From Bolinopsis microptera (Eukaryota > Ctenophora > Tentaculata > Lobata > Bolinopsidae), in NCBI RefSeq assembly GCF_026151205.1, contig NC_087081.1, positions 11,967,113 to 12,031,112 on the forward strand: DNA of 64,000 nucleotides, written 5' to 3'. Below the pieces are notes generated by a model. It searched no databases. It had not been told where the DNA came from and saw only the letters and a list, made by a program, of their open reading frames with translations. Below are positions 3,914-56,063 of this stretch, piece by piece. Within the stretch, counting starts at the first letter, position 1; the number at the start of each line of letters is the position of its first letter. Both the position numbers and the translations under genes were made by a program.

Positions 3914-3915
3914 TA

Positions 3916-5205
3916 GCTGAATAACGTATCGACATTTCTACGTCATACTCATATTCTGAAATAGTATTAATTCAATTATAACGATCAATATTCACATTAA
4001 AAATTTGACGACGAAATTCATTTCAAACAAAATATATAACTGTAAAATAGTTATCAACCGTAAATAGTTTTTAACGAAATCGGAGCAAATATGAACATAA
4101 AACTGACAACATTTATCAAATAGGGCTCATCTGAAAATTAACGAATAGCGTGACGTTATACAGGAGATAAAAGATTAAAAGAGATAAAAGAATTAAACGA
4201 GAATATTACTATTTACACGTCACTCAACTAAAAACTGTGTTAGATTGTTCAACTCTGTTTTATCGTTGAGTGTTGGTTTATTTTCAACTAAAAATCGGGC
4301 TTCTTTAATCTTTCTGTTGATGAGTGATGTTCCTCTATCTACGATTTGAAGTTTAAACTACCCTATGTCAACGAAGCTACTAGTCGCAAATACAGAGATG
4401 CTGTCAGACATAGTGGACTCCCCATCAAAATTGTCGAGAAACCTGGACGGAAACTGAAGGATCTCCTTACAGACTCCAGACCCCTTGACAAGAAATCCTG
4501 TACAACATCAAACTGCAGAACATGCGCAGCTTTAACCGATGGAGAATGCACCACAACTAATACCGTCTACCACATCACTTGCGCGCGAAGTAGACAATTG
4601 TACCGAGAACTATGGTGGGGAAACATACAGACCGATCAAGTGCAGGTTCGACGAGCATTACCGTAGTGCGGCAAATCCAACAGCAAAATCTTACGAAGAT
4701 AAGCCACTAGCAAAGCACTACAGGGAAAGTCACCCTCAGCACAAAGGCCCCCCAAAACTTAAACTTCAAATCGTAGATAGAGGAACATCACTCATCAACA
4801 GAAAGATTAAAGAAGCCCGATTTTTAGTTGAAAATAAACCAACACTCAACGATAAAACAGAGTTGAACAATCTAACACAGTTTTTAGTTGAGTGACGTGT
4901 AAATAGTAATATTCTCGTTTAATTCTTTTATCTCTTTTAATCTTTTATCTCCTGTATAACGTCACGCTATTCGTTAATTTTCAGATGAGCCCTATTTGAT
5001 AAATGTTGTCAGTTTTATGTTCATATTTGCTCCGATTTCGTTAAAAACTATTTACGGTTGATAACTATTTTACAGTTATATATTTTGTTTGAAATAAATT
5101 TCGTCGTCAAATTTTTAATGTGAATATTGATCGTTATAATTGAATTAATACTATTTCAGAATATGAGTATGACGTAGAAATGTCGATACGTTATTCAGCT
5201 ATTTA
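3916..5205. repeat. Long inverted repeat of the Penelope 3' region
   Basis: Left arm 3916-4355 and right arm about 4763-5205 are near-perfect reverse complements. For example, the left arm reads AGCTGAATAACGTATCGACA and the right arm reads TGTCGATACGTTATTCAGCT. The spacer of about 400 bp holds most of the GIY-YIG coding region, and the right arm holds the last codons and the 3' UTR. Such a structure would extrude as a large hairpin and could be lost or shortened by recombination. Confidence 0.85.
4346..4895 (+). pseudogene. Penelope-like element, GIY-YIG endonuclease end
   Basis: This is the C-terminal endonuclease portion of a Penelope-like polyprotein. Recognisable pieces are a Cys-rich lead-in (KKSCTTSNCRTCAALTDGEC), VYHITC, then ENYGGETYRPIKCRFDEHYR, NPTAKSYEDKPLAKHY, and a terminal segment with DRGTSLINRKIKEARFLVE. 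In Penelope elements the GIY-YIG domain follows the reverse transcriptase and nicks the target; the arrangement CxxC, YxGET.RP...RF.EH, then RKIKEA is characteristic. The copy is 5'-truncated (no RT here) and broken, with its coding pieces in two overlapping frames. It belongs to the insertion bounded by the 12-bp duplications at 2431 and 5268. Confidence 0.75.
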
Positions 5206-13768: not shown

Positions 13769-16700
13769 ATATGGACACGTTCATTTGAGTTTGAGGATAT
13801 TGGTAAATAAAAATAATAGCGTTTTTGACGATAGTGGCTTAATTTTGACATCTATTAACCACATAACCCATACTCCCATATGCACTGCTCAGAAAGAAAA
13901 TCTATTGTTGTTAGACACTAAAATGTATCAAATGTCACATTTTGTGTGACTTAATCAACTGCAGTTGTCTAATTACCATTCCTTGGCCTGAAACATAGTA
14001 GATTAGGTCAATCTAACAATTATGATACAACATTGGTTAAAGGGCACGGATTGAACGGTTACAAGGCAATATCTAGGTAACTTTGTCACACTCAGAATAC
14101 CATACCTCTATTCTACTGTGATGTGTCCTCAAAACCCTTTTTAGTTTTTACTCATTATTTGATGGTTGATCTACCAAGTACGGAGTACCAATCATAGCCC
14201 TTAAATATGTTGCTTTGAAAAGTTAGCTAATAGTAATACAGGCACTTGGTTATTGGGACATGAGGTTAATTCTGTCACAATATATGGAATTTAAAATTTT
14301 GAGCGAATTATTTATATCTGATTTTGGTTTGAAAGGCGGGAAAACTTTACATGATGACAAAGTAGTTGATGCAAGTTAAGATCAGTTGATGTTTACATTG
14401 TCACAAAAAATTATACGAAATCGCAAATAGGTTAAAAACAATGATTATATAATGAAATAGTCTCCTTTAATAACTCTTATAATAACTGATGTGACGGCAC
14501 TATCTGTCGCGGAGTCGAGTCCGCGGCGGAGCCGCCGGACTCCGAGCGGACTCCGGCGGAGCCGCCGGACTTCGAGCGGACTCCGGCGGTGCTCCGCCAA
14601 AATGTATTTACAGTGGACTCGAGTACATTTTGGCGGACTCCGAGCGGAGCCGAGCGGACTCCGAGCGGACTTTAAAGTCCGCCGCGGACTAAGCCACTAG
14701 GCGGACTCCGGTCCGCCGCGGACTCCGGCGGAGTGCTTGGCGGACTCCGCCGGACCTCTCCGCCAGACTTGAATCCGGCGGAGCTTGGCGGAGTCCGCCA
14801 GCTCGGCGGACTCCGCTCGGAGTCCGCCGGACTCCAACAGAGTCCACTGACTTCCGACCTCCGTCTTCCGACCCTCGGCTAAATTTGTCACGTGACATAC
14901 AACATAGCATTTTGCAATATTGTGGTCAGATGAAAAGGTCGCTAGCGATAAACCTTAACCATTACCCTCACAATGTCAATAGTGTACAACTCTAGTCCTA
15001 ACTTTGACCCTATAATGTATAAACGTTGACCCTAACCCTCCACCAAACCGTCCGCAGCGAAATATCAATGTCATTGACTGGTCACGTGACCAAAACAATT
15101 TTTGTCATATTATCTCATATGGGGAAGCGTTTTTAGCAAACAAAAATACGTCGACCATCACAGGACGACGCCAGCCAGCACTCTCTACGCTCTTCGAGCT
15201 CCGATCGTCCTGTGACGAAGTAAGGACGAAGCCTGAGGTCCTCAGGTAACATCGACCACCGATTGAAAATTCAAAGATTTTTTGACATAAAGGTCAAATG
15301 TAAAACTAAAATCTTGATGTTGATTGATTGACGACGTCAATTTTTGAGCACAGCGCGAGCGCATGCGGAAAAGGACCGCGTAGCTAGTCAAGATGTTGAT
15401 AAATATTTGGCTTGTGGCGCGATGTGTTGCTCTAACTATAGCCCTCTCGCTTGCAGTAGCGCGCGACCGCCGGAGGCGGAAATGACCTGGTTAGCTAGGT
15501 AAACGCGATGTGCCTTGTAGGATGAAATCCTACTAGCTGACGCCATTCGCAGCTGCCCAGAAAAGCTTACCGGCTGGCCGTGGTACTTGTAGGTTTACAA
15601 CCTACCAGGACGCGCGCCGAGTTGGACTCGTCGACGGTCCTGGAACAGATATTTTACGAGTATCACCCGTTAACGAGAAAAATTGCGTGGCGCGTCGGGT
15701 GGCACATCTTAACGGGTGATACGCGTATAAATTTCGATCGCTGACGTACAGCGAACATCACAGCTGCGAGTGGCGTCAGCTAGTAGGATTTTATCCTACA
15801 ATGCAAGGCACATCGCGTTCATTTAGCTAACCAGGTGCTTTCGCGCCGCTTCGGGCGCGCTTGTTCCACAAGTCATTTCCGGCGGTCGCGCGCTACTGTA
15901 AGCGAGAGTGCTATAGTTAAAGCAACACATCGCGCCACAAGCCAAATATTTATCAACATCTTGACTAGCTACGCGGTCCTTTTCCGCATGCGCTCGCGCT
16001 GTGCTCAAAAATTGACGTCGTCAATCAATCAGCATCAAGATTTTAGTTTTACATTTGACCTTTATGTCAAAAAATTTTTGAATTTTCAATCGGTGGTCGA
16101 TGTTACCTGAGGACCTCAGGCTTCGTCTTTACTTCGTCACAGGACGATCGGAGCTCGAAGAGCGTAAAGACTAAGAGTGCTGGCTGGCGTCGTCCTGTGA
16201 TGGTCGACGTATTTTTGCTTACTGGGGTCCGGCCGAATGACGCCACATGCAACGTGTAGGGTAAAACTTAAAACGCTTCCCCATATGAGATAATATGACA
16301 AAAATTGTTTTGGTCACGTGACCAGTCAATGACATTGATATTTCGCTGCGGACGGTTTGGTGGAGGGTTAGGGTCAACGTTTATACATTATAGGGTCAAA
16401 GTTAGGACTAGAGTTGTACACTATTGACATTGTGAGGGTAATGGTTAAGGTTTATCGCTAGCGACCTTTTCATCTGACCACAATATTGCAAAATGCTATG
16501 TTGTATGTCACGTGACAAATTTAGCCGAGGGTCGGAAGACGGAGGTCGGAAGTCAGTGGACTCTGTTGGAGTCCGGCGGACTCCGAGCGGAGTCCGCCGA
16601 GCTGGCGGACTCCGCCAAGCTCCGCCGGACTCCGCCGGATTCAAGTCTGGCGGAGAGGTCCGGCGGAGTCCGCCAAGCACTCCGCCGGAGTCCGCGGCGG

Positions 16701-18754
16701 ACCGGAGTCCGCCTAGTGGCTTAGTCCGCGGCGGACACTCCGCCGAGCCGCCGCGGAGCCGCTCGGAGTCCGCGGCGGACTTTAAAGTCCGCTCGGAGTC
16801 CGCTCGGCTCCGCTCGGAGTCCGCCAAAATGTACTCGAGTCCACTGTAAATACATTTTGGCGGAGCACCGCCGGAGTCCGCTCGAAGTCCGGCGGCTCCG
16901 CCGGAGTCCGCTCGGAGTGCGCTCGGAGTCCGGCGGCTCCGCCGCGGACTCGACTCCGCGACGGATAGTGCCGATGTGACAAAGTAAACATGTCTTGCCC
17001 CTATTTTGAAGATCTATATATTCTATAACTTTATTAGAATTCAACATTCTTTCAGAAAAAATTGGTAGAATATTGTCCAGAACATCAGAGCTCAAGTTTA
17101 ACAATTTTAGGTTAAATTTGTCAAAGTCACTAAAAATGTGACAAAATCAACTTTTCCTGCCCAAAAATTTCAAAATTAGCATATGCTGCCTTATTACCTA
17201 AATAAATCAATCCAAACTACAAAAAATATATGTTAATGTGATGACAATTACCTAACTGTAATAATAACTGATGTGACAATGTAAAAATGTCTTGCCCCTA
17301 TTTTGAAGATCTATTACTGTATTAGAATTCAATACTCTTTCAGAAACGATAGGTAGAATATTTTCCAGAACATCAGATCTCAAGTTTAGCAATTTAGGTT
17401 AAATTTGTCTAAGTCACTAAAAATGTGACAAAATTAACTTTTCCTGCCCCAACAATTTCAAGATAGTGTGTAAAAATTAGCATAGGCTGCTTTATTACCT
17501 AAATAAATCAATCCAAACTACAAAAGAATATATGTTAATGTGATGATGATTACCTAACTCTAATAATAACTGATGTGACAAAATAAACATGTCTTGCCCC
17601 TATTTTGAAGATCTATTTATCTATAACTGTATTAGAATTCAACATTCTTTCAGAAACAATTGGTAGAATATTGTCCAGAACATCAGAGCTCAAGTTTAAC
17701 AATTTCAGGTTAAATTTGTCTAAGTCACTAAAAATGTGACAAAATTAACTTTTCCTGCCCCAACAATATCAAGATAGTGTGTAAAAATTGGCATAGGAAT
17801 TAGGATGCTTTATTGACTATATTAATCGAACCATACTACGAAAAAGATCGGTTAATCTGATGACGATTACCTAACTCTTATAATAACTGATGTGACGAAG
17901 TAAACATGTCTTGCCCCTATTTTGAAGAACTATACCTCTATTAGAATACTATGTAACTTTATCATCAAAAAAATTTCGATAAACTAGTTATTTTGCCAGC
18001 AAGGAGCTGACAGAGTTATAATAATTTTTTTGTGACGAAATTACCCTATTTTTGACCATGTTGCGGTAGTTTAATTGTGACACTGTTAACATATTACCAC
18101 CCGATAATGATTTATGTGACTGGTGCATGGTACTAGCAGTGTTGTTTGATCCATAGTACGTAATACAAAGGGTTTAAGCTGGTATATCATTATTTGTTCA
18201 ATTTCACACATGTTGAGATATCATGTGACAAAGTAAACTTGTCTGTGCCTTCTGTGTTTTAATTCCTTGCGACTATATGATATAATAACAATTCCTAGCA
18301 CTTCCAGGCCATTAAATAAACCTACACTATTCAGCATTGCTTATCAGGGTTCCCTAAACATTCTTCACATATTTTCTTAAATGTGTGACACAGTAAACCT
18401 GAGTGCACCATCTAACGAAAAAAGTCGTCAAATATGTAGGTAATGGTCATATGTACCCATCAAATCAACTGGACACTCAAAATTTTGGTCAAAAACGGCA
18501 GCAAGGGGTCCATATTTACTCTGTCACATGTTTATAGTGTGACAATGTAACCATTTCCGTGCCGGCCGTATTTAAGCGATATCTTATCACCTATCATTGT
18601 TATGTGACAAAGTTAGCCTAGAGGATGAGACGATTATCCTAACCATCAAGGGTTTGTGTAATTTCATAGTGTGACAAAGTCAACTACACTGTGCTTTTTA
18701 ATAGGGTCACTTATATTTACCAATATCCTCAAACTCAAATGAACGTGTCCATAT
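13769..18754. mobile_element. GTCACA-rich TIR element, copy 2, inverted and split by another element
   Basis: It has the same ends as copy 1 (ATATGGACACGTTCATTT at 13769, mirror at 18754) but in the opposite orientation. Its left part matches the right part of copy 1, and its right part (18754 backwards) matches 7554 onward base for base over long stretches. Removing the 2477-bp insertion at 14496-16972 leaves about 2.5 kb, the size of copy 1. The TGTGACAAAGTAAAC-type motifs recur about every 150 bp from 16975 to 18680. The two copies, in opposite orientation about 3.75 kb apart, make the whole 7.5-18.8 kb stretch an inverted duplication. Confidence 0.8.
14496..16972. mobile_element. Palindromic hAT-like element with 8-bp target duplication
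   Basis: It starts GGCACTATCTGTCGCGGAG and ends with the mirror, finishing GATAGTGCC. The 8-bp sequence GATGTGAC directly flanks both sides (14488-14495, 16973-16980), an exact target duplication. Essentially the whole element is one palindrome: arms of about 1.2 kb meet near 15690. The outer 400-480 bp of each arm is a GC-rich minisatellite of 10-11-bp words (GCGGACTCCGA, GTCCGCCGGA). Inner landmarks such as TTGGTCACGTGACC and GGAGGGTTAGGGTCAACGTT are mirrored. No transposase gene. The 8-bp duplication suggests hAT, though the terminal bases are not the usual CAG form. Confidence 0.85.
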
Positions 18755-32670: not shown

Positions 32671-35600
32671 TTTTGCTCCCCATTTCACTGGGCCGGGCGT
32701 TACCCCGATCCACCTGGGAGTGGTAACACCACAAAACCGTTAATTGCCTGTCAGTGCTATATCACTGGGGGGTCGGTTGCTGTGGCGGCGAGAGGATGCG
32801 ATTGCTGGGTGGTGCTTGGTGATGCTGTCATGTGGCAGGGTCATCTGTGTGTCACTCACGGTTCACCATTTTGTCCAAGTCTTGGTTGCCCTGTGTAATC
32901 GAGCATTTGCTTGGTGATCTTGTCTCTGACATGATCACTTACGGTTTAATTTTGATTCCCTATGGGCTTCAGAAGCTCTGCATGCTTTAACTTTACGTAT
33001 CGAACCTAACCACCAGCTTGCTGGTGTCCGGACGGAGCGCTTACTTCTTGATGTCGGTGCTGCCTCTGGATCGGGTGCGAAGGTCCGGCAAACCATCCAC
33101 CTTAAATCAAACCGCTACAGAAACGTCTACAGTGTCATTCAATAGTATTATACGTGGAGGCGCAGGTGGAGTGATGACGGCGACTAGGCAAAGCCGAAAG
33201 GACCCTAGTAGCTTGATGTCTGTTTGCAACTCCCGTAAGAGCCGACGTAAACACTGTAAATACAGAATTCCTTTATCAGATTTGTCATTTGTAAACAGAC
33301 AGTCAAGTATGTCTAATCCTGTAAATATTGTAAAGAATCCTCTCTGTATCAGTACATGGAATGTTACTTCTCTTGTCAGTAATTCCAGTAAGATGTATCA
33401 ATTAGGAAAAGGTTTTGATGATTATGGACTAGAGCTCCTTGGGGTAACTGAAACACATATGGCTGGATCAGGAACTCAGACTTTGGACAATGGGGCTGTT
33501 TTGGTTTATTCTGGCAGGAGCGATGGAGTACGGAGAGAAGGAGTTGGTGTTGTTCTTTCCAAAAAGATGAAGAATACTCTCATATCATACACCCCTGTAT
33601 CAGGACGGGTTATGACTGCCCGTTTACATAGCAAACACATCAACATTAGTGTTACAGTTGTGTATGCTCCAACTGAGGATGCAGAGATCAGTTTAAAAGA
33701 CTCATTCTACAAGGAATTGAATGATGTTCAATCGGGACTACCAGCACATGATATAAAGATAGTTATAGGAGATTTTAATGCTCGTGTTGGAAGGGATACT
33801 GATGCTCACCCTGGTGTTATAGGAAAACACTCATATCACACAGAATCAAATGATAACGGAAAACGGATGCTAGATTTCTGTACTATGCACCAGCTGACGA
33901 TCGGAGGCACACTCTTTGAACACAAAGATATCCACAAGACAACATGGAGATCCCCAAATGGTAACACCGTCACTCAAATTGACCATATGTGTATTTCGAC
34001 GAGATGGAGCCATTCTTTGCTTGATGTCAGGAGCATGAGAGGAGCAGATATAAATACTACTCACTATCTGGTAAGAGGATATGTATCTATTAAACTTAAG
34101 TGTCCTCAGAAAAGAAAGAAGCGTGTAAGACAGCCTGCTTTAGAGCACCTGCGTGATAGATCTAAGAGCCAGGAATATAGTAACAGAATAGCTGAAGAGT
34201 ACTATAACAACGATCAGGAGCATGGAAACTCTCCTTTAGAAGAACAGTGGAAGAAATTGAGAGATATAATAACTGATGTTTCATTTGAAGTGCTGGGTGA
34301 AAGGGGCCGGAAAAAGAGAACAGAACATCTCTCAAGGGATACTAAAAATCTCCTAAAAGAACGAGGGGAGATTAAAAAGAAACCCAGTACTGCTGAGAAC
34401 CGTGCTAAGTACTCGCGGATTAACGGCCTTGTTAGGCAGAACTGTAAAAGAGATGATAATGCTTGGGCTGTTAGAGTAGCTGAGGAATTAGAAGATGCTG
34501 CCAAGCAGGGTCAACAAAGAGATGTTTGGCAGAAAATAAAATACTTAACAAACAAGAGAGTAAGCAGATCTGCGGCAGTGCGGGATAAGAATGGGACACT
34601 TATATCAGATCCCGAAGCTCAGTCACATCGCTGGGCCGAATATTTTGAAGAACTCTTGACGCCAGCAGCAAATGCGGTGGATTTCTCTATATTGGATCAG
34701 GATGAAAAGTTACTTTCTTTTGAATACCTTAGTAATGATGATGAACCACCGTCCTTGTTTGAAATTGAGGAAGCTATCAAGAAGTTGAAGAACTACAAGA
34801 GTGCTGGAATTGATGAAATTTCAAATGAGCAGTTAAAGTACGGTTCTTCTGGACTTCTGCCTTGGTTAAAGGATCTTTTTGAAACTGTGTGGAAAAGTGA
34901 GGATATTCCTAATGATTGGAGAAAAGGAATAATCACCATCATCCCAAAGAAAGGGGACCTCACATATTGCAACAATAACAGAGGTATAACGTTACGTTCA
35001 ACTGTATCAAAGTTATTCCAAATTGTGTTGTTAAAAAGACTGAGTAATGGGCTTGAAAAATTGCTCAGAGAGAATCAGTGTGGTTTCAGGAGAAACCGTT
35101 CTTGTATAGATCAGCTGTACTCACTTCATTGTATAATACACAATTGTATAGAATTCAACGTCCCTTTGTACATAAACTTTATTGATTTTAAAGCTGCTTT
35201 TGATTCAATCAATCGTGACTTTATTTGGAAAGCTTTTGAACATTATGGTCTTCCGACAAAATATATCAATGTTTTCAAAGCGTTCTTTAGAGCAACTGAA
35301 AGTGCAGTTCGTGTCAATGGAGAATTGACAAGATGGTTTGATGTCGATTCGGGGACTGGACAAGGTGATGTGCAAGGGCCCCCCATTTTTAATCTTGTAC
35401 TTAACTGGGGATTAGAACTTGCAGAGAAGTTTAAAAATATATCCCGTGGTTTTACTCTTCAGTATAGACAAAGTTCCAGACAACCGGAAAAATGTGTCAT
35501 TGATCTGGACTATGCTGATGACATCGCAGGAATGGATGACACTGTTGAAGGACTGCAAGAAACTACGGACAATATTGCGAAATACTGTGGGCTCGGGGGT

Positions 35601-36383
35601 CTTAAGATGAACGCAAAGAAAACAGAGATCATGGTCATTGGGAAAGATACATCGCAGCACCCACTCCCAGAGAATAGGACCATAGATATAACTGTCGATG
35701 GAAACTCTGCAAAGCAGGTCACTCAATTCACTTATTTGGGTGCCAAAATTACATCAGATGGCAAGATTGATAAAGAAATAAGTGTCAGGATTGGAAAAGC
35801 AACTGGAGCTTTTAACCAACTCAACAACATTTGGAAGAATAAGAACATAAGCATTAACAACAAAGTGCGAATCTACATCGCAGCTGTTCTTACCATTCTG
35901 ACCTATGGATGTGAGATATGGAACACGACTCAAGTGCAGACAAGAAGATTGGAGTCTTTCCATCAGTACTGCTTAAGAAGAATCCTGAGAGTGAGGTGGT
36001 TCCATCGAGTAAGTAATGAGGATGTTTTAAGAAGGGCATCAATAACTGCTCTTGCTGACATAATAACAACAAAACGGCTGCGTTGGTTTGGACATGTCAG
36101 TAGAATGCCTGAAGATCGGTTACCCAACTATTTACTTGAATGGAAACCCAAGCATGGGAAGAGATCAAGAGGCAGGCCTAGGAAGAGCTTAAATGATGTA
36201 TTTATTGAGGATGCTGAGCAGAGATTGGATCGGAATGGACTCACGATTGATTGTATGAGAAGATTAGCTGCAGACCGAAAGGGATGGAGAAATGTTACCC
36301 GCCGAAGTTGTATAATACAAAGTAATGACGCAGTCGACGCAGACTAATCCTTTTGGATGGAGATCTCGCCATGTATGTATGTA
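32671..36383 (+). mobile_element. Complete-looking LINE with 7-bp target duplication
   Basis: GTTTGAA at 32664-32670 is repeated at 36384-36390. The bases outside join into the tandem unit seen at 28318-28360 and 30473-30520, so these are the true borders. The element is 3713 bp: a 5' leader of about 380 bp, one long ORF, a very short 3' tail and a terminal ATGTATGTATGTA microsatellite instead of poly-A. One ORF with an APE-type endonuclease, RT and a short tetranucleotide tail is typical of RTE-like elements. The intact ORF and matching target duplication suggest a recent insertion. Confidence 0.85.
33051..36347 (+). CDS. LINE polyprotein: APE endonuclease and reverse transcriptase
   Basis: This is an open frame of 1098 codons from the first ATG at 33051; the frame is also open slightly upstream without an ATG. 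Residues 1-95 are basic and Ser/Arg-rich. From about residue 97 (33340) an APE-like endonuclease has CISTWNV, VTETHMAGSG, VVYAPTED, VIGDFNARVG and QIDHMCIS. The reverse transcriptase (about 34760-35760) has SAGIDEISNEQLKYG, YINFIDFKAAFDS and YADD at 35511-35522, plus an unusual GTGQGDVQGPPIF where most LINEs have QGC.LSP.LF. The C-terminus has LRWFGHVSRMPEDRL and GKRSRGRPRKS, a block shared by RTE and related clades. The protein would nick target DNA and copy the element's RNA in place. No stops or frameshifts are seen. RTE-like is my best clade call and CR1-like is less likely. Confidence 0.9.
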   Translation: MSVLPLDRVRRSGKPSTLNQTATETSTVSFNSIIRGGAGGVMTATRQSRKDPSSLMSVCNSRKSRRKHCKYRIPLSDLSFVNRQSSMSNPVNIVKNPLCISTWNVTSLVSNSSKMYQLGKGFDDYGLELLGVTETHMAGSGTQTLDNGAVLVYSGRSDGVRREGVGVVLSKKMKNTLISYTPVSGRVMTARLHSKHINISVTVVYAPTEDAEISLKDSFYKELNDVQSGLPAHDIKIVIGDFNARVGRDTDAHPGVIGKHSYHTESNDNGKRMLDFCTMHQLTIGGTLFEHKDIHKTTWRSPNGNTVTQIDHMCISTRWSHSLLDVRSMRGADINTTHYLVRGYVSIKLKCPQKRKKRVRQPALEHLRDRSKSQEYSNRIAEEYYNNDQEHGNSPLEEQWKKLRDIITDVSFEVLGERGRKKRTEHLSRDTKNLLKERGEIKKKPSTAENRAKYSRINGLVRQNCKRDDNAWAVRVAEELEDAAKQGQQRDVWQKIKYLTNKRVSRSAAVRDKNGTLISDPEAQSHRWAEYFEELLTPAANAVDFSILDQDEKLLSFEYLSNDDEPPSLFEIEEAIKKLKNYKSAGIDEISNEQLKYGSSGLLPWLKDLFETVWKSEDIPNDWRKGIITIIPKKGDLTYCNNNRGITLRSTVSKLFQIVLLKRLSNGLEKLLRENQCGFRRNRSCIDQLYSLHCIIHNCIEFNVPLYINFIDFKAAFDSINRDFIWKAFEHYGLPTKYINVFKAFFRATESAVRVNGELTRWFDVDSGTGQGDVQGPPIFNLVLNWGLELAEKFKNISRGFTLQYRQSSRQPEKCVIDLDYADDIAGMDDTVEGLQETTDNIAKYCGLGGLKMNAKKTEIMVIGKDTSQHPLPENRTIDITVDGNSAKQVTQFTYLGAKITSDGKIDKEISVRIGKATGAFNQLNNIWKNKNISINNKVRIYIAAVLTILTYGCEIWNTTQVQTRRLESFHQYCLRRILRVRWFHRVSNEDVLRRASITALADIITTKRLRWFGHVSRMPEDRLPNYLLEWKPKHGKRSRGRPRKSLNDVFIEDAEQRLDRNGLTIDCMRRLAADRKGWRNVTRRSCIIQSNDAVDAD

Positions 36384-38389: not shown

Positions 38390-39935
38390 AAAACACGTCA
38401 TTAAAAACACTTTCCAACTACAAAACTTAAACACAAAACCAGCTCTGAGCACTATTTCTAGGTTCTCAAACGACTAAATGATGCGAATTATAACTCCTCA
38501 GAGCTGATCCCACTCTACATTAAAAAAACTTTCCAACTACAAAACTTAAACACAAAACCAGCTCTGAGTACTATTTCTAGGTTCTCAAACGACTAAATGA
38601 TGCGAACTATAACTCCTCAGAGCTGATCCCACTCTACATTAAAAACACTTTCCAACTACATAACTTAACCACAAAACCAGCTCTGAGTACTATTTCTAGG
38701 TTCTCAAACGACTAAATGATGCGAATTATAACTCCTCAGAGCTGATCCCACTCTACATTAAAAACACTTTCCAACTACAAAACTTAAACACAAAACCAGC
38801 TCTGAGTACTATTTCTAGGTTCTCAAACGACTAAATGATGCGAATTATAAATCCGCAGAGCTGATCCCACTCTACATTAAAAACACTTTCCAACTACAAA
38901 ACTTAACCACAAAACCAGCTCTGAGCACTATTTCTAGGTTCTCAAACGACTAAATGATGCGAATTATAACTCCTCAGAGCTGATCCCACTCTACATTAAA
39001 AACACTTTCCAACTACAAAACTTAAACACAAAACCAGCTCTGAGTACTATTTCTAGGTTCTCAAACGACTAAATGATGCGAATTATAACTCCTCAGAGCT
39101 GATCCCACTCTACATTAAAAACACTTTCCAACTACAAAACGTAAACACAAAACCAGCTCTGAGCACTATTTCTAGGTTCTGAAACGACTAAATGATGCGA
39201 ATTATAAATCCTCAGAGCTGATCCCACTCTACATTAAAAACACTTTCCAACTACAAAACTTAACCACAAAACCAGCTCTGAGCACTATTTCTAGGTTCTC
39301 AAACGACTAAATGATGCGAATTATAAATCCGCAGAGCTGATCCCACTCTACATTAAAAACACTTTCCAACTACAAAACTTAACCACAAAACCAGCTCTGA
39401 GCACTATTTCTAGGTTCTCAAACGACTAAATGATGCGAATTATAACTCCTCAGAGCTGATCCCACTCTACATTAAAAACACTTTCCAACTACAAAACGTA
39501 AACACAAAACCAGCTCTGAGCACTATTTCTAGGTTCTGAAACGACTAAATGATGCGAATTATAAATCCTCAGAGCTGATCCCACTCTACATTAAAAACAC
39601 TTTCCAACTACAAAACTTAACCACAAAACCAGCTCTGAGCACTATTTCTAGGTTCTCAAACGACTAAATGATGCGAATTATAAATCCGCAGAGCTGATCC
39701 CACTCTACATTAAAAACACTTTCCAACTACAAAATTTAACCACAAAACCAGCTCTGAGTACTATTTCTAGGTTCTCAAACGACTAAATGATGCGAATTAT
39801 AAATCCTCAGAGCTGATCCCACTCTACATTAAAAACACTTTCCAACTACAAAATTTAACCACAAAACCAGCTCTGAGCACTATTTCTAGGTTCTGAAACG
39901 ACTAAATGATGCGAATTATAAATCCTCAGAGCTCC
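38390..39935. repeat. Satellite array, 120-bp unit, about 13 copies
   Basis: Each unit includes CATTAAAAACACTTTCCAAC, CACAAAACCAGCTCTGAGCA, TTCTAGGTTCTCAAACGACT and CAGAGCTGATCCCACTCTA. Marker variants recur every three units. ACAAAACGTAAAC appears at about 39138 and 39497, GGTTCTGAAACG at 39175, 39534 and 39892, and AAATCCGCAG at 38851, 39329 and 39687. The right part is therefore a higher-order repeat of about 358 bp. No coding sequence. Confidence 0.92.
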
Positions 39936-42092: not shown

Positions 42093-42809
42093 GGTCATAG
42101 ATCAGACAAGGCTGGTCGGTCGGAGGTTGGTCGGAGGTCGGTCGACCGACCTCCGACCGACCTCCGACCGACCTCCGACCGACCTTCGACCGACCTCCGA
42201 CCGACCTCCCACCGACCTCCGACCGACCTCCGACCGGCGCCCGACCGACCTCCGACCGATCTCCGACCGACCTCCGACCGACCTCCGACCGACCTTCGAC
42301 CGACCTCCGACCGACCTCCGATCGACCTCCGACCGACCTCCGACCGATCTCCGACCGACCTCCGACCGACCTCCGACCGACCTCCGACCGACCTCCGATC
42401 GACCTCCGACCGACCTTCGACCGACCCCCGACCGACCTCCGACCGACCTCCGACCGACCTCCGACCGACCTCCGATCGACCTACGACCGACCTCCGACCA
42501 ACCTCCGACCGACCTCCAACCGGCGCCCGATCGACCTCCGACCAACCTCCGACCGACCTCCGACCGACCTCCGACCGACCTCCGACCGACCTCCGACCGA
42601 CCTCCGATCGACCTCCGACCGACCTCCAACCGGCGCTCGACCGGCGCCCGACCGGCGCCCGATCGACCTCCGACCAACCTCCGACCAACCTCCGACCAAC
42701 CTCCGACCAACCTCCGACCGACCTCCGACCGGTGTTCACCTACCGCCGACCGGCGCCTGACCGACCTCCGATCGAACTCTGACCGACCAGCCTTGTCTGA
42801 TCTATGACC
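42093..42809. mobile_element. Foldback element filled with an 11-bp GC-rich minisatellite
   Basis: The ends are exact mirrors: GGTCATAGATCAGACAAGG (42093) and CCTTGTCTGATCTATGACC (to 42809). Between them lies an array of about 55 copies of the 11-bp word CCGACCGACCT, which flips orientation at GGTCGACC near 42143. Because three 11-bp units make 33 bases, all frames stay open and give repeated DLRPTSDRPPT-type peptides on one strand and SEVGRRSVGGR on the other; I regard these as non-coding. It stands directly before the exon end of the Lys/Ala-rich gene. No target duplication is evident. Confidence 0.85.
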
Positions 42810-47960: not shown

Positions 47961-48171
47961 AAAAACTGTCTATTTATAATCTATATGTACCCTTTTAACT
48001 CAAAAGACTACTAATACTGTATCTGACCAAAAAGCCACACAATCATTTGAGTATAGTAGGTTTGTGATGTTATTTGGCTCCAGAAGGGTCTATACTCTAT
48101 AGATCAAAAAATATTTGGGTGGAAAAATGTTTTTTTGTCTTCGAAGTCTGTGGCCACGCCCTTTTATAAGA

Positions 48172-48600
48172 TCGTGGGAAAATCCTACAGTTTCCTAAAA
48201 TAAATTCATATTTTGATAATAAAAGCACGTAGGTTAATCAAACCAATGTTTTTGGCTCGGGAAATCGATTGGCGATGTCTATTTGACTTTTAAACCACTC
48301 CCTGATAAGATAACCACGCCCATGCCATGGCCATATTCATAATTGATCAGCTTCAAAATTCCAGAAAATTTTAATGGTTTCCTTGGACAAATTGGATGTC
48401 GAAACTAATGATTTTGGCTCGGGAAATCGATTGGCGATGTCTACTTGACTCTCAGACCACTCCCTGATAAGATGACCACGCCCATATTAACAATTAATCT
48501 TCAAAATTTACAAAAATTTAAGTGATTTCTTGGACAAGTTAGGTGTTGAAACTGTTGTTGTTTTTTTTGGCACAGGAGATCGATTGGTTATGTCGTTTGC
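48172..48600. repeat. Left subterminal tandem repeats of the long-TIR transposon
   Basis: Three imperfect units contain GGCTCGGGAAATCGATTGGC near 48253, GGCTCGGGAAATCGATTGGC near 48416, and a diverged third, GGCACAGGAGATCGATTGGT, near 48571. They are followed by CCACTCCCTGATAAGAT and CACGCCCAT. They mirror the units at 51872-52400. Confidence 0.8.
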
Positions 48601-48723
48601 ACGAAAATGCCACACAGAACTAAATTGAAACAGTTTTTTGAAATAGTTTGCATCAAAATAATATAATATTTAAACATACTGTAATGGCTATTAATGATAA
48701 AAATAAATAAAATCATAAGTATG

Positions 48724-50900
48724 CTTATTTGTTTTCGCAATTAATGGAAAGGCGAAAGTTTGAACATTTTGACCCCTCCGCTTTAACACAAAGATAATGT
48801 TTAGTTTTGCATCCAGTTTTACATCGGCAAGTGTTGCAAAGTTCATCAGGAATAAGGTGAAGTTGCTTGTTGGCATAAAGACCGCCCTCCTGATCTTCCC
48901 AACCGTATTCAAGAACATTAAGGAGGCAGCGTACATGTTCTGGTGTTAAAAGATTGGAACTTTCTTTCAAAAGGTACCACCATCTCCTTATATGCCCATT
49001 CCTAATAAAATAAGAGGTTGGAGGAAGACCAAGAGCAGAACCAGTTTTTTTGTGAACCTGAACTCTAAGGTCATCAAATGTTTTGACTCCATTTGAAGCT
49101 GATAACACATTCACAAGATATTCTTCTGCGACCTTTGGTTGATCCTCATCTAAAATCGCCGTTTTGCCAAAATTACAAAGACTTTTCTCCGGGTCAGCAG
49201 TCAGTGCACATCTCTTTGACCCCACTTTGATTAGGTGATCAGATCCTGTTGCTAGATGTGCACTGAGAATTTCTTGATAAAAGTCTTTTCCGAATCTTTC
49301 AAACATTATGTGCACAGGCAACATCCTTCGCTTCTCACCTTTACCAAGCTGCAAGAATAAGTTCTGTAACCCAAGACTATGAAATTCTTCAAAGTAGTGT
49401 AACAGAAACATAAAGTCGACCACAACAGCCTCATCGTTATATATTAGAAGGATTGCATATAAGATCGTCAGTTTTGAAGGATGCTTTCTTTTCAAGTTCC
49501 TCCCTCATTTTATTTTTGATTGGTTTTACCATCAAAGAACCGTTGAAGAGCGTACTATAGTTTGTAATATCATACTTAAGAACTCTTGCTAAATCTCCAT
49601 CTTTACTTTTTGCTACAGAAACTAGAAAGGACTTTGCTACAGAAACGAGCAAGCCTTGAAGCTCGCTCGTTTTTCTTGATAGACGTTTCAGCGGCATCTG
49701 ATTTAGCAGCTGTAACATGATCCACAGGAAGTAAATTTATCTTGCTGATCTTGTCTGCCAATAACCTTGTCTTTTCTTTGTAAACTGATTTTTGGAACTA
49801 GTCATACTTTTTAGATACAATCTCAAAGAAATCATAATGCATCTTGGCAACACTGTCTTCGGCATAAACTTGCGTAACAAGGTTTTTTATTTGTCGTGAT
49901 TCTCCTTGCAGAATGGATTTCCTTGACTACTTATATAACTTGAGATACTGTCAGTGCGAGCATTGATCTCTTGAATCTTTCTAGAACTTAAATGATGATG
50001 GGAAGATGCATTGGCAGTCTCTGTGTTCCCTCCTTTATCCGAGTTTGTTATCTCCCTAAAGGTGTTGGTTATAGAGAGAACCTCGTGATATTCCGCAACG
50101 TATTCCTGTTTCCTAGTCTGCCCTATGATTCCGTGTGAACTCGTTGAACTACGTTGTATTGTTTGTTCAAGAGCAAGATCTGGCGACACTGCGTTAAAAG
50201 ATCCCGAGGTTCTCTTAACTACAAAATGCTTTTTCAAAAAGGAGTCATGTAACTCTGGGTGAGTGTGCTTGACATTTTTAAGAAGCTCCAAGTAAAAAGA
50301 GTCGTTTCTCAAATAGTTTAGACTGTCACAACCAAAAAAGGTAAAAGGTCTTGAATGGTCTTCATATTCAGATCTCCATCTCTTTCTGATCGTATGAAGT
50401 TTCTTATGAGGTTCATGATTATCAGAAAGTTGAACCAATACTTGCATTGTGACGAGCTTTCCGAACAAATTTTCTCTAAACGATCAATATCCTGTTTTAA
50501 CTAATTTACAGTATTGCAAGAGATCAGACATTTACGATTGAGAAAATGCCTTATTGTTGTCACAGAGAGCTTGCTGAAATCGTTCCAGCTTAACTATAGC
50601 ATCAGAGTAGTTTTGCGGTGGGTGCTCTTTCCAAAAAGCCTTCATTTTCATTCTCGTCTTAGAATTGTAAGACCCCCTAAAGAACGATAGTAATGCTTTC
50701 CATTCATTACTGAATCTACAGTCTTCGGACCAAAGATTCCACATTCTATGAATATGTCCTCGACTCCAGAGTCCAGACCCCTTCAAAAATTTTCCTGCGC
50801 AGTGCAAGGCCGTTTTAGTCAAGTGGAATCCACCAAGCATGGGGAATATCTTCAAGAACAGTTCTGGCTGCAGGCTGCGGCAGGTAGATTTTATCCTATC
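48724..50900 (-). pseudogene. Broken Cys-rich-tailed transposon gene (unnamed metazoan family)
   Basis: Reading the minus strand from right to left: 50900-50532 has LKIFPMLGGFHLTKTALH and KFLKGSGLW; 50468-49887 has FLKKHFVVKRTSGSFNAVSP then DLALEQTIQRSSTSSHGIIG; 49718-49437 has KLLARVLKYD-like sequence; 49495-48725 has GVKTFDDLRVQVHKKTGS, IRNGHIRRWWYLL, NVLEYGWEDQEGGLYANKQL and a tail with CNTCRCKTGCKTKHYLC, a CxCxxxC-rich knuckle. I recognise this order (LG.FH...S..G.....GSG; F.V.R....F..V..D...EQ...R..K..GG; K.FD.LR......; Cys tail) as a common uncharacterised protein type in invertebrate genomes. I know no established function for it. It lies in at least four frames and the N-terminus is missing, so this copy is dead. 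Placement between long TIRs suggests it is the element's own transposase or accessory protein. Confidence 0.55.
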
Positions 50901-50934
50901 TCACATTAATCACTCTTAACGGAAATTTTAGTTA

Positions 50935-52641
50935 AAATTGGGCGTGGTTATCTTATCAATGGGTGGTCTGAGAGTCAAATACCTTATCGGACCTTATTTG
51001 GACGGACATTACTTGAACGCTGGAGGCCCTAACGTTCATCTTAATGTCCGTTCAAATAAAGTCCGTTCAATTAATGTCCGTCCAAGTTAAAGTCCGTTGA
51101 AATTTTTTCAAAAATTTTTTCATTTCGAACTTTTTGTCCAGAATATGACAACTTTGAGAACTTTATTGTGCCGTAAGTTAACGATGGAAAGGTTCTCCTT
51201 GGTCTGCCGGAGGCACAGAAAACTCTACTAGTATATGATATTTTCAAGGGTCACTTGGCGGAAAAAAGTCAACGGAATTATGGCACTCAACAACATAGTT
51301 CATGAACTAGTCCCCGCCAACATGACAAACTTGTTCCAGCCTCTAGATATTACGGTAAATCGTGTTGCCAAGGACATTGTCCGACGTTGTTATAGTTCAT
51401 ATTACTCGGGGGCGGTCATGAAACAGTGCTAGGAAAGCTCCACGTGATGTTAAGGTTAACCTAAGTTGTCTAAGATAAAACCACTTCACGCCGAATGGCT
51501 TGTAAAAGTTAACACTGAAATGCAGGACCGGGGTAGTTTGATAAAAAAGGTTTCCATAAAGCTAGAAATCACTGATGCTTCAAGCATGGACTATTTCATG
51601 CACGAAAACCCATTTGATGAAGATGATATGTGATATTAGACACTGATCATATACACATATTTTAACATTTTTACTGCTCAATGACTGCTTTTCTTACTTA
51701 CTGTATAAAAAATGGATTTAAAAATCATTTGCTGAAATTTAAAAAACGTCAAAAAAATTGAAAAAATTCGGATTTTTGATGGTTTTGAATGCCTTCGAGC
51801 GTTCATATTACTGTCCGTTCATAATTATGTCCGTTCATGTAATGTCCGTCCAAATAAGGTCCGATAAGGTAGACATCGCCAATCGATTTCCCGAGCCAAC
51901 AAACATTGGTTTTGACACACAACTTGTTCAAGAAAAGCACTTAAATTTTTGTAAATTTTGAAGATTATTTGTGAATATTGGCGTGGTTATCTTATCAATG
52001 GGTGGTCTGAGAGTCAAATAGACATCGCCAATCGATTTCCCGAGCCAACAAACATTGCTTAACATTGGTTTTGACACACAACTTGTCCAAAAAAATTACT
52101 TACATTTTTGTAAATTTTGAAGATTATTTGTGAATATGGGCGTGGTTATCTTATCAATGGGTGGTCTGAGAGTCAAATAGACATCGCCAATCGATTTCCC
52201 GAGCCAACAAACATTGGTTTTGACACACAACTTGTCCAAGAAAATCACTTAAATTTTTGTAAATTTTGAAGATTAATTGTGAATATGGGCGTGGTTATCT
52301 TATCAGGAAGTGGTCTGAGATTCAAATAGACATCGCCAATCGATTTACCGAGACAAAAAATAATGGTTTGGATAACCTATATGCTTTTATTATCAAAATA
52401 TGAATTTATTTCAGGAAATTGTAAGATTTTCTTGGCCACAGACTTCGAAGACACATAACTTTTTTTCCACCCAAATTTTGTTTGATCTATAGACCCTTCT
52501 GGAGCCAAATAACATCATAAACCTACTATATATAATATTCATATATATGATTGCAGTGTCGGGTCTATTCACAAAACGTGACATTTAGTCTTGTGTTTAA
52601 ACTTAAAGGGGTACATGTAGACTTATTATACCCTTTTAACC
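50935..52641. repeat. Right subterminal tandem repeats of the long-TIR transposon
   Basis: Units start GACATCGCCAATCGATTTCC at 51872, 52020, 52171 and 52328, each running through CATTGGTTTTGACACACAAC to GGTGGTCTGAGAGTCAAATA. The first unit is split: its predecessor ends ...GAGTCAAATA at 50981 and resumes after the pogo-like element at 51870. The sequence from 52400 to 52641 is the outer TIR. Confidence 0.85.
50982..51869 (+). mobile_element. pogo/Tigger-like element, internally deleted (copy 3)
   Basis: The ends are CCTTATCGGACC and GGTCCGATAAGG with TA duplicated (50980-50981, 51870-51871). The site reads through as an intact tandem unit when the element is left out. The plus strand has FSRVTWRKKVNGIMALNN and VHELVPANMTNLFQPLDITV then NRVAKDIVRRCYSSYYSG, the terminal block of a pogo/Tigger DDE transposase. 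The upstream catalytic domain and HTH are missing. The ORF piece at 51235-51432 is therefore a remnant. Confidence 0.85.
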
Positions 52642-52643
52642 TA

Positions 52644-54162
52644 CAGGGTGGCCCATAAGTGACTACCCACACGCAACCTCTTAATAACTCACGTAATTCG
52701 TCTCCAAATTGCACCAAAATTTCAGAGATTATAGATATGGGTCAAACTTAGATTTCCTGAAAGTTTCGTAAGCCACGCCCAATTACAGTGGGCGTGGCGT
52801 GACACTCCCTCTTTTTCACTATTGTCTTCATAAAATGAGAACGCTTTAAGCTGAGAACTCCAAATTTTTTGCACACATTTGGCTTGATAATTGAAAACCT
52901 TTCCCAAAGTTTCAAGTTCATTGGTTAAAATATGGCTAAGTTATGACCATTTCAAAACTCATCGGATACGTGATCCGAGCACTCAGTCAGTGATCTCGTC
53001 AATTGGTTAATGGCCTGTTTGGCTCACATGCACCGCTTGATTGGTTGCAGCCTGCTTATGGGCCGGCCTATACAGCTGACAGCACCTAAAACGCTATCAC
53101 ACGAATTTATGGTGGTGTCACCATTTCAGGGCTTGTTAGCCCTGCTAGTCACAGGTTCCTTACAATCAATAAAAATGGTTCACTATCCTCCCTTTACTGC
53201 AGAACAACGATTGTTCGTCTACCTGAAGAAAGAAAATGGGGAGTTCTACCCTCAGATTAAACGACAATTTCAGATGAAATTCAACCGACCACCCCCTTGC
53301 CGGAAAAGCTGCTTTGACATTCATCACAAGATCAAGTTTACGTTTTCTGCACACGATCGGCGAAGAGTCGGCAGAACACGAACTACGAGGACTGTAGAAA
53401 ACATCACGATGGTTGTTGGTGACGTGATGGACACACCTAAGATTGGCACCCGGAAACGAGCTCCTGCCTTAGACCTCAGCAGAACAACCCTTCAGCGAAT
53501 CCTAAAGCAAGACCTTTCTAACCGGGCCTACCGAATCACAAAGAAACACAAACTTTTGGACCGTGATTTCCAATCGAGGATAGATTTCGCCAACACATTC
53601 CTTGAACATCTTAATTGAAATTATTGAATTGTTTTTGTGTGGGAATTTTTATTAGTTGATTTCATTTATTGATTTATCCTAAAAATTTGTGTTTTCTTTT
53701 CTAGCAAAGACATCATCGGTATCCAATCAAAGCCTAATGAACCTCATTAATACACGCTAACGCCTTACTCTTGATCAGATTGGGTGACGAGATCACTAAT
53801 TCAGTGCAAATATCACTGACTGAGTGCTCGGATCACATATCCGATGGATTTTAAAATGGTCATAACTCAGCCATATTTTAACCAATGAACTTGAAACTTT
53901 TGGAAAAGTTTTCAATTATCAAGCCAAATGTGTGCAAAAAATTTTGAGTTCTCAGCTTAAAGCGTTCTCATTTTATGAAGACAATAGTGAAAAAGAGGGA
54001 GTGTCACGCCACGCCCACTGTAATTGGGCGTGGCTTACGAAACTTTCAGGAAATCTAAGTTTGACCCATATCTATAATCTCTGAAATTTTGGTGCAATTT
54101 GGAGACGAATTACGTGAGTTATTAAGAGGTTGCGTGTGGGTAGTCACTTATGGGCCACCCTG
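52644..54162 (+). mobile_element. Tc1/mariner-like element with long TIRs
   Basis: The ends are CAGGGTGGCCCATAAGTGAC and GTCACTTATGGGCCACCCTG, with TA on both sides (52642-52643, 54163-54164). The terminal repeats are very long, about 350 bp, matching through CCACGCCCAATTACAGTGGG and TATGGCTAAGTTATGACCAT to the CACTCAGTCAGTGAT region. One truncated transposase ORF lies between them, so the copy is non-autonomous. It inserted at the outer end of the long-TIR transposon. Confidence 0.9.
53175..53618 (+). pseudogene. Truncated Tc1/IS630-type transposase, DNA-binding part only
   Basis: An ATG at 53175 in a good context (AAAAATGG) opens 147 codons. The in-frame ATG at 53010 is less likely because the family usually starts just before an FT.E.R.F...Y segment, as here (PPFTAEQRLFVYLKKENGEF). 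A first helix-turn-helix-like region is followed by the linker HDRRRVGRTRTTRTVENI (family form DRPRSGRPRT.RT.ENI) and a second HTH with DLSRTTLQRILKQDLSNRAY. The end FQSRIDFANTFLEHLN, then stop, falls just where the DDE catalytic domain should start. Full-length relatives are roughly 330-350 aa, so the catalytic half has been lost. It could still bind element ends but not cut. Confidence 0.75.
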
Positions 54163-54200
54163 TATATAAAATTTGGTAAGAATGAATTATTAAAAGGGAC

Positions 54201-54590: not shown

Positions 54591-56063
54591 CTTCCAGGGG
54601 AGAAGAGGAAAATGATCAGCTGATCTCCAGTCCTTCCAGGGGAGAAGAGGAAAACGATCAGCTGATCTCCAGTCCTTCCAGGGGAGAAGAGGAAAACGAT
54701 CAGCTGATCTCCAGTCCTTCCAGGGGAGAAGAGGAAAACGATCAGCTGATCTCCAGTCCTTCCAGGGGAGAAGAGGAAAACGATCAGCTGATCTCCAGTC
54801 CTTCCAGGGGAGAAGAGGAAAACGATCAGCTGATCTCCAGTCCTTCCAGGGGAGAAGAGGAAAACGATCAGCTGATCTCCAGTCCTTCCAGGGGAGAAGA
54901 GGAAAACGATCAGCTGATCTCCAGTCCTTCCAGGAGAGAAGAGGAAAACGATCAGCTGATCTCCAGTCCTTCCAGGGGAGAAGAGGAAAACGATCAGCTG
55001 ATCTCCAGTCCTTCCAGGAAAGAAGAGGAAAACGATCAGCTGATCTCCAGTCCTTCCAGGGGAGAAGAGGAAAACGATCAGCTGATCTCCAGTCCTTCCA
55101 GGGGAGAAGAGGAAAACGATCAGCTGATCTCCAGTCCTTCCAGGGGAGAAGAGGAAAACGAACAGCTGATCTCCAGTCCTTCCAGGGGAGAAGAGGAAAA
55201 CGATCAGCTGATCTCCAGTCCTTCCAGGGGAGAAGAGGAAAACGATCAGCTGATCTCCAGTCCTTCCAGGGGAGAAGAGGAAAACGATCAGCTGATCTCC
55301 AGTCCTTCCAGGGGAGAAGAGGAAAACGATCAGCTGATCTCCAGTCCTTCCAGGGGAGAAGAGGAAAACGATCAGCTGATCTCCAGTCCTTCAGGGGAGA
55401 AGAGGAAAACGATCAGCTGATCTCCAGTCCTTCCAGGGGAGAAGAGGAAAACGATCAGCTGATCTCCAGTCCTTCCAGGGGAGAAGAGGAAAACGATCAG
55501 CTGATCTCCAGTCCTTCCAGGGGAGAAGAGGAAAACGATCAGCTGATCTCCAGCAGAACGGTGAACAATTTGTTGATTTTGAAAAACGATCAGCTGATAA
55601 CCAGGGGAGAAGAGGAAAACGATCAGATGATCTACAGTCCTTCCAGGGGAGAAGAGGAAAACGATCAGCTGATCTCCAATCCTTCCAGGGGAGAAGAGGA
55701 AAACGAACAGCTGATCTCCAGTCCTTCCGGGGGAGAAGAGGAAAACGATCAGCTGATCTCCAGTCCTTCCAGGGGAGAAGAGGAAAACGATCAGCTGATC
55801 TCCAGTCCTTCCAGGGGAGAAGAGGAAAACGATCAGCTGATCTCCAGTCCTTCCAGGAGAGAAGAGGAAAACGATCAGCTGATCTCCAGTCCTTCCAGGA
55901 GAGAAGAGGAAAACGATCAGCTGATCTCCAGTCCTTCCAGGAAAGAAGAGGAAAACGATCAGCTGATCTCCAGTCCTTCCAGGGGAGAAGAGGAAAACGA
56001 TCAGCTGATCTCCAGTCCTTCCAGGGGAGAAGAGGAAAACGATCAGCTGATCTCCAGCAGAAC
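54591..56063 (+). repeat. 42-bp minisatellite, about 34 copies, with a 14-residue open repeat
   Basis: Unit: CCTTCCAGGGGAGAAGAGG, then AAAACGATCAGCTGATCTCCAGT. Every unit contains the 12-bp perfect palindrome GATCAGCTGATC. In frame it encodes SRGEEENDQLISSP repeats (acidic). Most copies are identical. Variant units (AGGAGAG, AGGAAAG, GAACAG) recur in blocks, showing segmental duplication: AGGAGA...AGGAAA at 54930-55020 resembles 55855-55940. One unit at about 55390 has lost a C, so no single frame spans the array. A closing module, CAGCAGAACG(G/C)TGAACAATTTG, occurs at 55551 and 56055. The frame from 55561 to 56124 is open for 187 codons. Whether this is an exon of a gene or a plain minisatellite is undecided. 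Confidence 0.8.

Follow-up and report, generated by a model that had tools for sequence, protein, structure and literature searches.

What kind of mobile element joins long, internally repetitive inverted arms to a broken gene for an uncharacterised protein? The question is raised by a stretch of Bolinopsis microptera DNA (contig C10:11967113-12031112; "the window" denotes all 64,000 nucleotides of it), in which a sequence-only reading had placed a long-arm transposon with an unnamed gene at positions 47965-54200 and had suggested that the repeat-bearing arms define its superfamily. The transposon itself is real, while both of the proposed edges were wrong: the long-arm element extends between positions 48012 and approximately 52571 and forms part of a composite region with two foreign transposons nearby or inside it. 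Based on searches of this one genome (264.65 Mb in 232 contigs), the window copy is considered to be the decayed remnant of a cut-and-paste DNA transposon that has lost its autonomy; within the Academ superfamily, its most probable place is the AcademX lineage, and we give this assignment a probability of roughly 0.84.

The arms, approximately 0.6 kb long and composed of mirrored tandem units as had been described, carry three unit markers on the left (of which that at 48568 is degenerate) and four on the right, and are 88% alike. When the left arm was used as a nucleotide query against the genome, as the sequence-only reading had proposed, 52 match rows were returned, several of them from one same copy, a number which excludes chance. 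The left terminus is at 48012 rather than 47965; DNA outside it is also present in another copy, L014, and thus represents old flank. As this flank is common to both, the two copies probably descend from one ancestral insertion. Furthermore, L014 aligns through the sites of both foreign inserts (50982-51869 and 52644-54162), which are absent there. The first of these retains a DDE_1 remnant below the Pfam cut-off and the second a weak, likewise below-cut-off match to a Tc3-type helix-turn-helix. Because the right terminus is degenerate, its position (about 52571) was extrapolated by taking the spacing beyond the last aligned base to be that seen in L012, an element on contig C11.

The predicted broken minus-strand gene between the arms was borne out by its stops and frame breaks and by its match to an intact relative. 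This counterpart is L012, a 7.0-kb element with 565-bp inverted arms and a stop-free frame of 1556 codons, whose residues 645-1125 match window positions 49443-50870 and whose residues 1318-1556 match 48728-49453. The window gene is without residues 1-644 and 1126-1317 (L012 numbering), and two putative catalytic D blocks, located upstream of the LGGFHL..KGSG block, have been lost from it. By eye, the same junction, deleting most of the nuclease, is found in copy L019, which indicates that the two copies probably belong to a non-autonomous sublineage. A protein search of the genome, in which the best 30 of 199 candidates were scored, gave 34 matches among those listed; as scoring in the genome search was confined to the best candidates, all copy counts are lower bounds. 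Long stop-free matches were found at 56% identity at three places on contigs C1, C6 and C7, at 55% on C2, and at 26-27% at four places on C2, C6, C9 and C13, three of these four containing one TAA when followed over their full length. No relative of the protein was confirmed in viral contigs, where 63 stretches fit a pattern.

Intact frames are located within elements of four diverged lineages, namely A (L012, with arms and without a clean target duplication), C (L029, with 417-bp arms and the duplication TCA), D (L030, with arms and the duplication TTC) and E (L060, with ends assigned by pattern to the two different types). Comparisons among the diverged lineages gave mutual protein identities of 21-27%, and the L029 protein is 56% identical to that of L012. 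What had been recognised from the sequence merely as a frequent uncharacterised invertebrate protein is, on this evidence, a DNA-transposon core protein.

Judged from sequence comparison, the intact protein is predicted to contain, in order, an N-terminal cysteine-bearing part, a putative DDE core, a nuclease of the FEN/EXO1 type and a CXC tail. The core bears the signature D..CDEGV..GGFH..DxALE, and a full-length alignment of three lineages revealed invariant DNF.H, CDEGVY, G.FH..K and D.ALE blocks, with D452, D631, H660 and E885 (L012 numbering) conserved in all three; D452, D631 and E885 represent a plausible DDE triad. The later core blocks of the lineage E protein L060 read FDLPLWLKA, GGFH and DLSIEQ, its first D block being a by-eye suggestion only. 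A single-sequence structure model of the 3' open reading frame of the window had a mean predicted local distance difference test score of 35 and was discarded.

FEN1 and XPG are nucleases of the same kind as Exonuclease 1. A profile built from four nuclease regions (L060, L061, L062 and L063, the last three having been chosen from distant genome matches) was compared with the PDB, whereupon Exonuclease 1 accounted for five of the six matches, the best (E 9.3e-5) covering the greater part of the domain, with the VFDG..K..R and GCD..S..G blocks included. The corresponding profile of the window lineage matched the four-region profile with 98.6% probability. In contrast to Exonuclease 1, FEN1 and XPG, the nuclease is here joined to a transposon core and to a cysteine tail; the latter is a Tesmin/TSO1-like CXC domain (PF03638), exceeding the Pfam cut-off in L063 and falling below it elsewhere. 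Homology to a repair nuclease might suggest a host gene, or a passenger captured by a transposon, a reading that we regard as very improbable given that the whole architecture recurs in several deeply diverged lineages, each with its own ends and arms.

Of the 13 A/B elements with both ends examined, 11 combine an exact TAATCCTG end with an exact TAATCAAG end, the ends of the two exceptions (L012 and L027) deviating in the TAAT part. The lineage C element L029 ends in TAATACAG and TAATCCTG, lineage D elements in TACTCCAG or TACTCTAG, and lineage E elements in TAGTTAGGG. Target duplications of exactly 3 bp were found in 11 of 15 pairs in lineages A to C and in 8 of 10 in lineage D, as against 5 of 210 and 0 of 72, respectively, in a mismatched-pairing control; none reaches 4 bp. 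In lineage E, a 3-bp duplication was read by eye in all four pairs fetched (L070, L071, L074/75 and L076/77). The pairs without one are L012, L016, L021/22 and L027 in lineages A to C, and L041/40 (one end missing) and L044/45 in lineage D. Reading the duplication length from an empty site, as had also been proposed, was made possible by a lineage B element, L025, which is inserted in a lineage E gene: the intact L060 provides the empty site, read base by base, and the best fit is obtained on removal of 3 bp, with ATA as the duplication. The duplication had initially been read as TA, an interpretation abandoned because the L011 site, a tandem repeat, and later pairs fit 3 bp. At positions 1367-4697 of L016 lies a B/A-type element with both unlike ends and no matching 3-bp duplication, the interior of which consists mostly of low-complexity repeats reading Ser/Pro.

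AcademX elements usually encode one long protein, with a nuclease of the XPG type. In the accessible text of PMC10045372, AcademX is described as encoding a nuclease and generating duplications of 3 or 4 bp, and AcademH as encoding a helicase and generating duplications of 9 or 10 bp, the duplication length being linked to the encoded helicase or nuclease; the available part of PMC10294476 lists Academ as a DDE/D superfamily, whose members in a curated library average 5565 bp. The elements described here have 3-bp duplications, a nuclease and terminal inverted repeats. Although their core is possibly related to that of AcademH, duplications of 9-10 bp were not found, and no helicase was present among the Pfam matches of the proteins scanned. 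With both AcademX traits present and neither AcademH trait found, the filing is considered likely, not proven, and the view that the group is unnamed is probably mistaken. Arms of up to 1.4 kb with repeats, unlike ends (lineages A to C and E) and palindromic derivatives are features that the AcademX description, as far as its text was available, does not include (PMC10045372). These unlike ends, for which the available literature descriptions provided no counterpart, together with the protein identities of only 21-27% between lineages and the lack of any Pfam transposase domain over cut-off in the proteins scanned, could point to a new superfamily, sister to Academ, which also possesses a DDE core, an EXO1-like nuclease and 3-bp duplications; this appears unlikely, as that same description of AcademX fits both the length of the duplications and the presence of a nuclease.

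Among other superfamilies, Harbinger likewise generates 3-bp duplications, and CACTA elements are recognised by CACTA-type termini. Such termini were not found, those observed here starting with TAAT, TACT or TAGT, and the Pfam matches of the proteins scanned included no PIF/Harbinger or Zator transposase domain, the duplication of Zator also being 3 bp (PMC10045372, accessible text). The inverted arms, which are long and internally repetitive, recall Foldback/Galileo-type elements, of which such arms would be the defining trait: the part of PMC3573991 that was available describes long, internally repetitive terminal inverted repeats for Galileo and places it, by its transposase, with the P element. 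The tandem units of the arms and the existence of derivatives consisting mostly of arm (L024 and L028, with 1405-bp arms in 3529 bp) would suit an element of this type. Its protein differs, however; no P-element transposase was found among the Pfam matches of the proteins scanned and no Mutator-like element domain in the Pfam scans, and the duplications are 3 bp long. The unit marker, present in one to five copies in each arm of the A/B elements examined, is missing from the arms of L029, in which self-BLAST also detected no direct repeat; lineage D copies, for their part, also contain a repeated internal arm stretch. The 150-bp repeats are therefore not a defining trait, contrary to the suggested superfamily based on repeat-bearing long arms, and a Foldback/Galileo affiliation is considered highly doubtful.

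Several observations weigh against the assignment of the window element to AcademX, which was made by published description. The DDE assignment of the core derives from conserved motifs; its match to DUF6589 scored 22.5 bits, below the Pfam cut-off of 27, and PDB searches of the core, the early ones with one protein or its close relatives, returned nothing relevant. With respect to the nuclease, an eight-sequence profile placed EXO1 at the top four of six matches with non-significant E values (0.025-0.062), a profile of close relatives found nothing in the PDB, and an hhalign comparison with a small alignment of host FEN1, EXO1 and XPG failed, performing no better than an unrelated control. 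The transposon nuclease was not among the listed matches of the Pfam XPG_I and XPG_N models, and L061, L062 and L063, which make up three quarters of the decisive profile, are distant matches whose placement between arms is presumed. Finally, it is L012, the bearer of the intact frame, that is without a clean 3-bp duplication.

Pairing of the ends indicated a further property of these elements. An exact-pattern search of the genome identified 13 ends of the TAATCCTG type and 13 of the TAATCAAG type, which were matched by eye into 12 facing pairs, with one unpartnered match in each list. All 12 pairs have unlike ends, two of them spanning 11 and 17 kb with other sequence in between. Where the gene is intact (L012 and L029), its 3' side faces the CCTG end. 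Over 1405 bp, L024 and L028 have lineage B arms of 98% identity, which nevertheless differ at the two bases that distinguish the end types. The end types of lineage E differ over approximately 30 bp; allowing up to three mismatches, the two types are represented by 36 and 26 ends, respectively, 12 of them unpaired, with 24 of the 25 facing pairs unlike and one alike. Reversed control patterns gave no matches in either the A/B or the E search. Outside this count, since its second end misses the pattern, stands L074/L075, which has like ends, one of them interrupted by 6 inserted bp, and nevertheless shows a target duplication of 3 bp. Together with the one alike E pair, it shows that the rule of unlike ends is strong, not absolute. 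For lineage D, inspection by eye revealed no consistent end difference within the first 40 bp.

Palindromic derivatives retain this asymmetry. L011 contains the C-terminal coding sequence of the gene in both arms, with the 3' ends outward, and its arms share 98% identity over 1425 bp; it nevertheless ends in CCTG and CAAG and has a 3-bp duplication. Aligned with L012, its right side follows the 3' half of the gene to a point among the tandem units, beyond which the outer part is 93.5% identical to the 5' arm and 91.4% to the 3' arm. Of the 24 lineage E elements with unlike ends, at least 13 carry 3' coding sequence of the gene in each arm, a count for which 64 of 150 genome match rows were used. 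Examples include L070, with 1097-bp arms of 99.5% identity and different termini, and L071, in whose second arm the coding match covers 23 residues only.

We give even odds to the proposal that the machinery of at least two deeply diverged lineages needs a left-type and a right-type terminus, told apart by two bases (TAATC-CT-G versus TAATC-AA-G) or by approximately 30 bp, while the arms are homogenised, or rebuilt as palindromes in which each side holds the 3' half of the gene, through template switching (for L011, apparently within the 150-bp units), the unlike ends filtering which rearranged copies still move. To our knowledge, the mechanism by which AcademX elements cut and join DNA has not been worked out. 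In the proposed scheme, the core would cut the ends and integrate the element with a stagger of 3 bp, the nuclease may trim strands or flaps at the cut ends, and the CXC tail and arm repeats may aid binding. Two unlike ends would be needed for efficient transposition in lineages A to C and E. In the simplest model, template switching between arms during gap repair would lengthen the arms and produce palindromes, after which selection would keep those copies still owning both end types. On the present findings, a widespread but uncharacterised animal protein architecture acquires a function, that of a transposon core protein with an EXO1-type nuclease, and such proteins need no annotation as host genes. 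The abundance of copies in this genome, together with intact relatives and naturally occurring palindromes, makes it possible to test directly what the fused nuclease does and whether two unlike ends are required.

Table 1. Parts of the long-arm element and adjoining insertions in the window
Feature	Position	Strand	Remark
Left terminus, TAATACTGTATCTG	48012..48025	+	Counterpart of the TAATCCTG end, found 3' of the gene in L012 and L029
Left inverted arm, 150-bp units	48012..48594	+	Markers at 48253, 48415, 48568
3' gene piece: C-terminal half of nuclease region and CXC tail	48725..49504	-	Residues 1126-1317 missing just upstream
Gene fragment between core and nuclease regions	49437..49736	-	Match to intact relative
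Gene fragment with FVVKRTSGSF..DLALEQTIQR block, putative catalytic E	49887..50483	-	Match to intact relative
Gene fragment with LGGFHL..KGSG block	50532..50900	-	Match to intact relative
Innermost right-arm piece, severed by pogo-like insertion	50894..50981	not assigned	Repeat comparison and L014 alignment
Nested pogo-like insertion in right arm	50982..51869	not assigned	CCTTATCGGACC ends, TA duplication
Right inverted arm, 150-bp units	51870..52571	-	Markers at 51872, 52021, 52180, 52329, mirrored
Separate adjoining element, outside the long-arm transposon	52644..54162	not assigned	Arms of about 360 bp (97%), TA duplication

Elsewhere in the window, positions 54591-56000 (searched to 56000) hold 33.6 tandem units of 42 bp, one frame of which reads SADLQSFQGRRGKR with dibasic sites, resembling either a precursor of the neuropeptide type or a satellite with a coding-like appearance. 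An open frame of 1118 codons at 32991-36347, with endonuclease and reverse transcriptase domains over the Pfam cut-offs, belongs to an element of the long interspersed nuclear element type, which may be recent. Two further tandem repeats are present, one of 119 bp at 38399-39933 (12.9 copies, 97% matches) and one of 11 bp (CGACCGACCTC) at 42143-42788 (58.8 copies), in which several frames are open. The inverted repeat at 3914-5201, whose 443-bp arms are 100% complementary and separated by 402 bp, is probably another recent transposon, and nested inverted repeats of 155, 117, 366 and 293 bp (97-99% complementary) at 14536-16921 form a foldback-like element.

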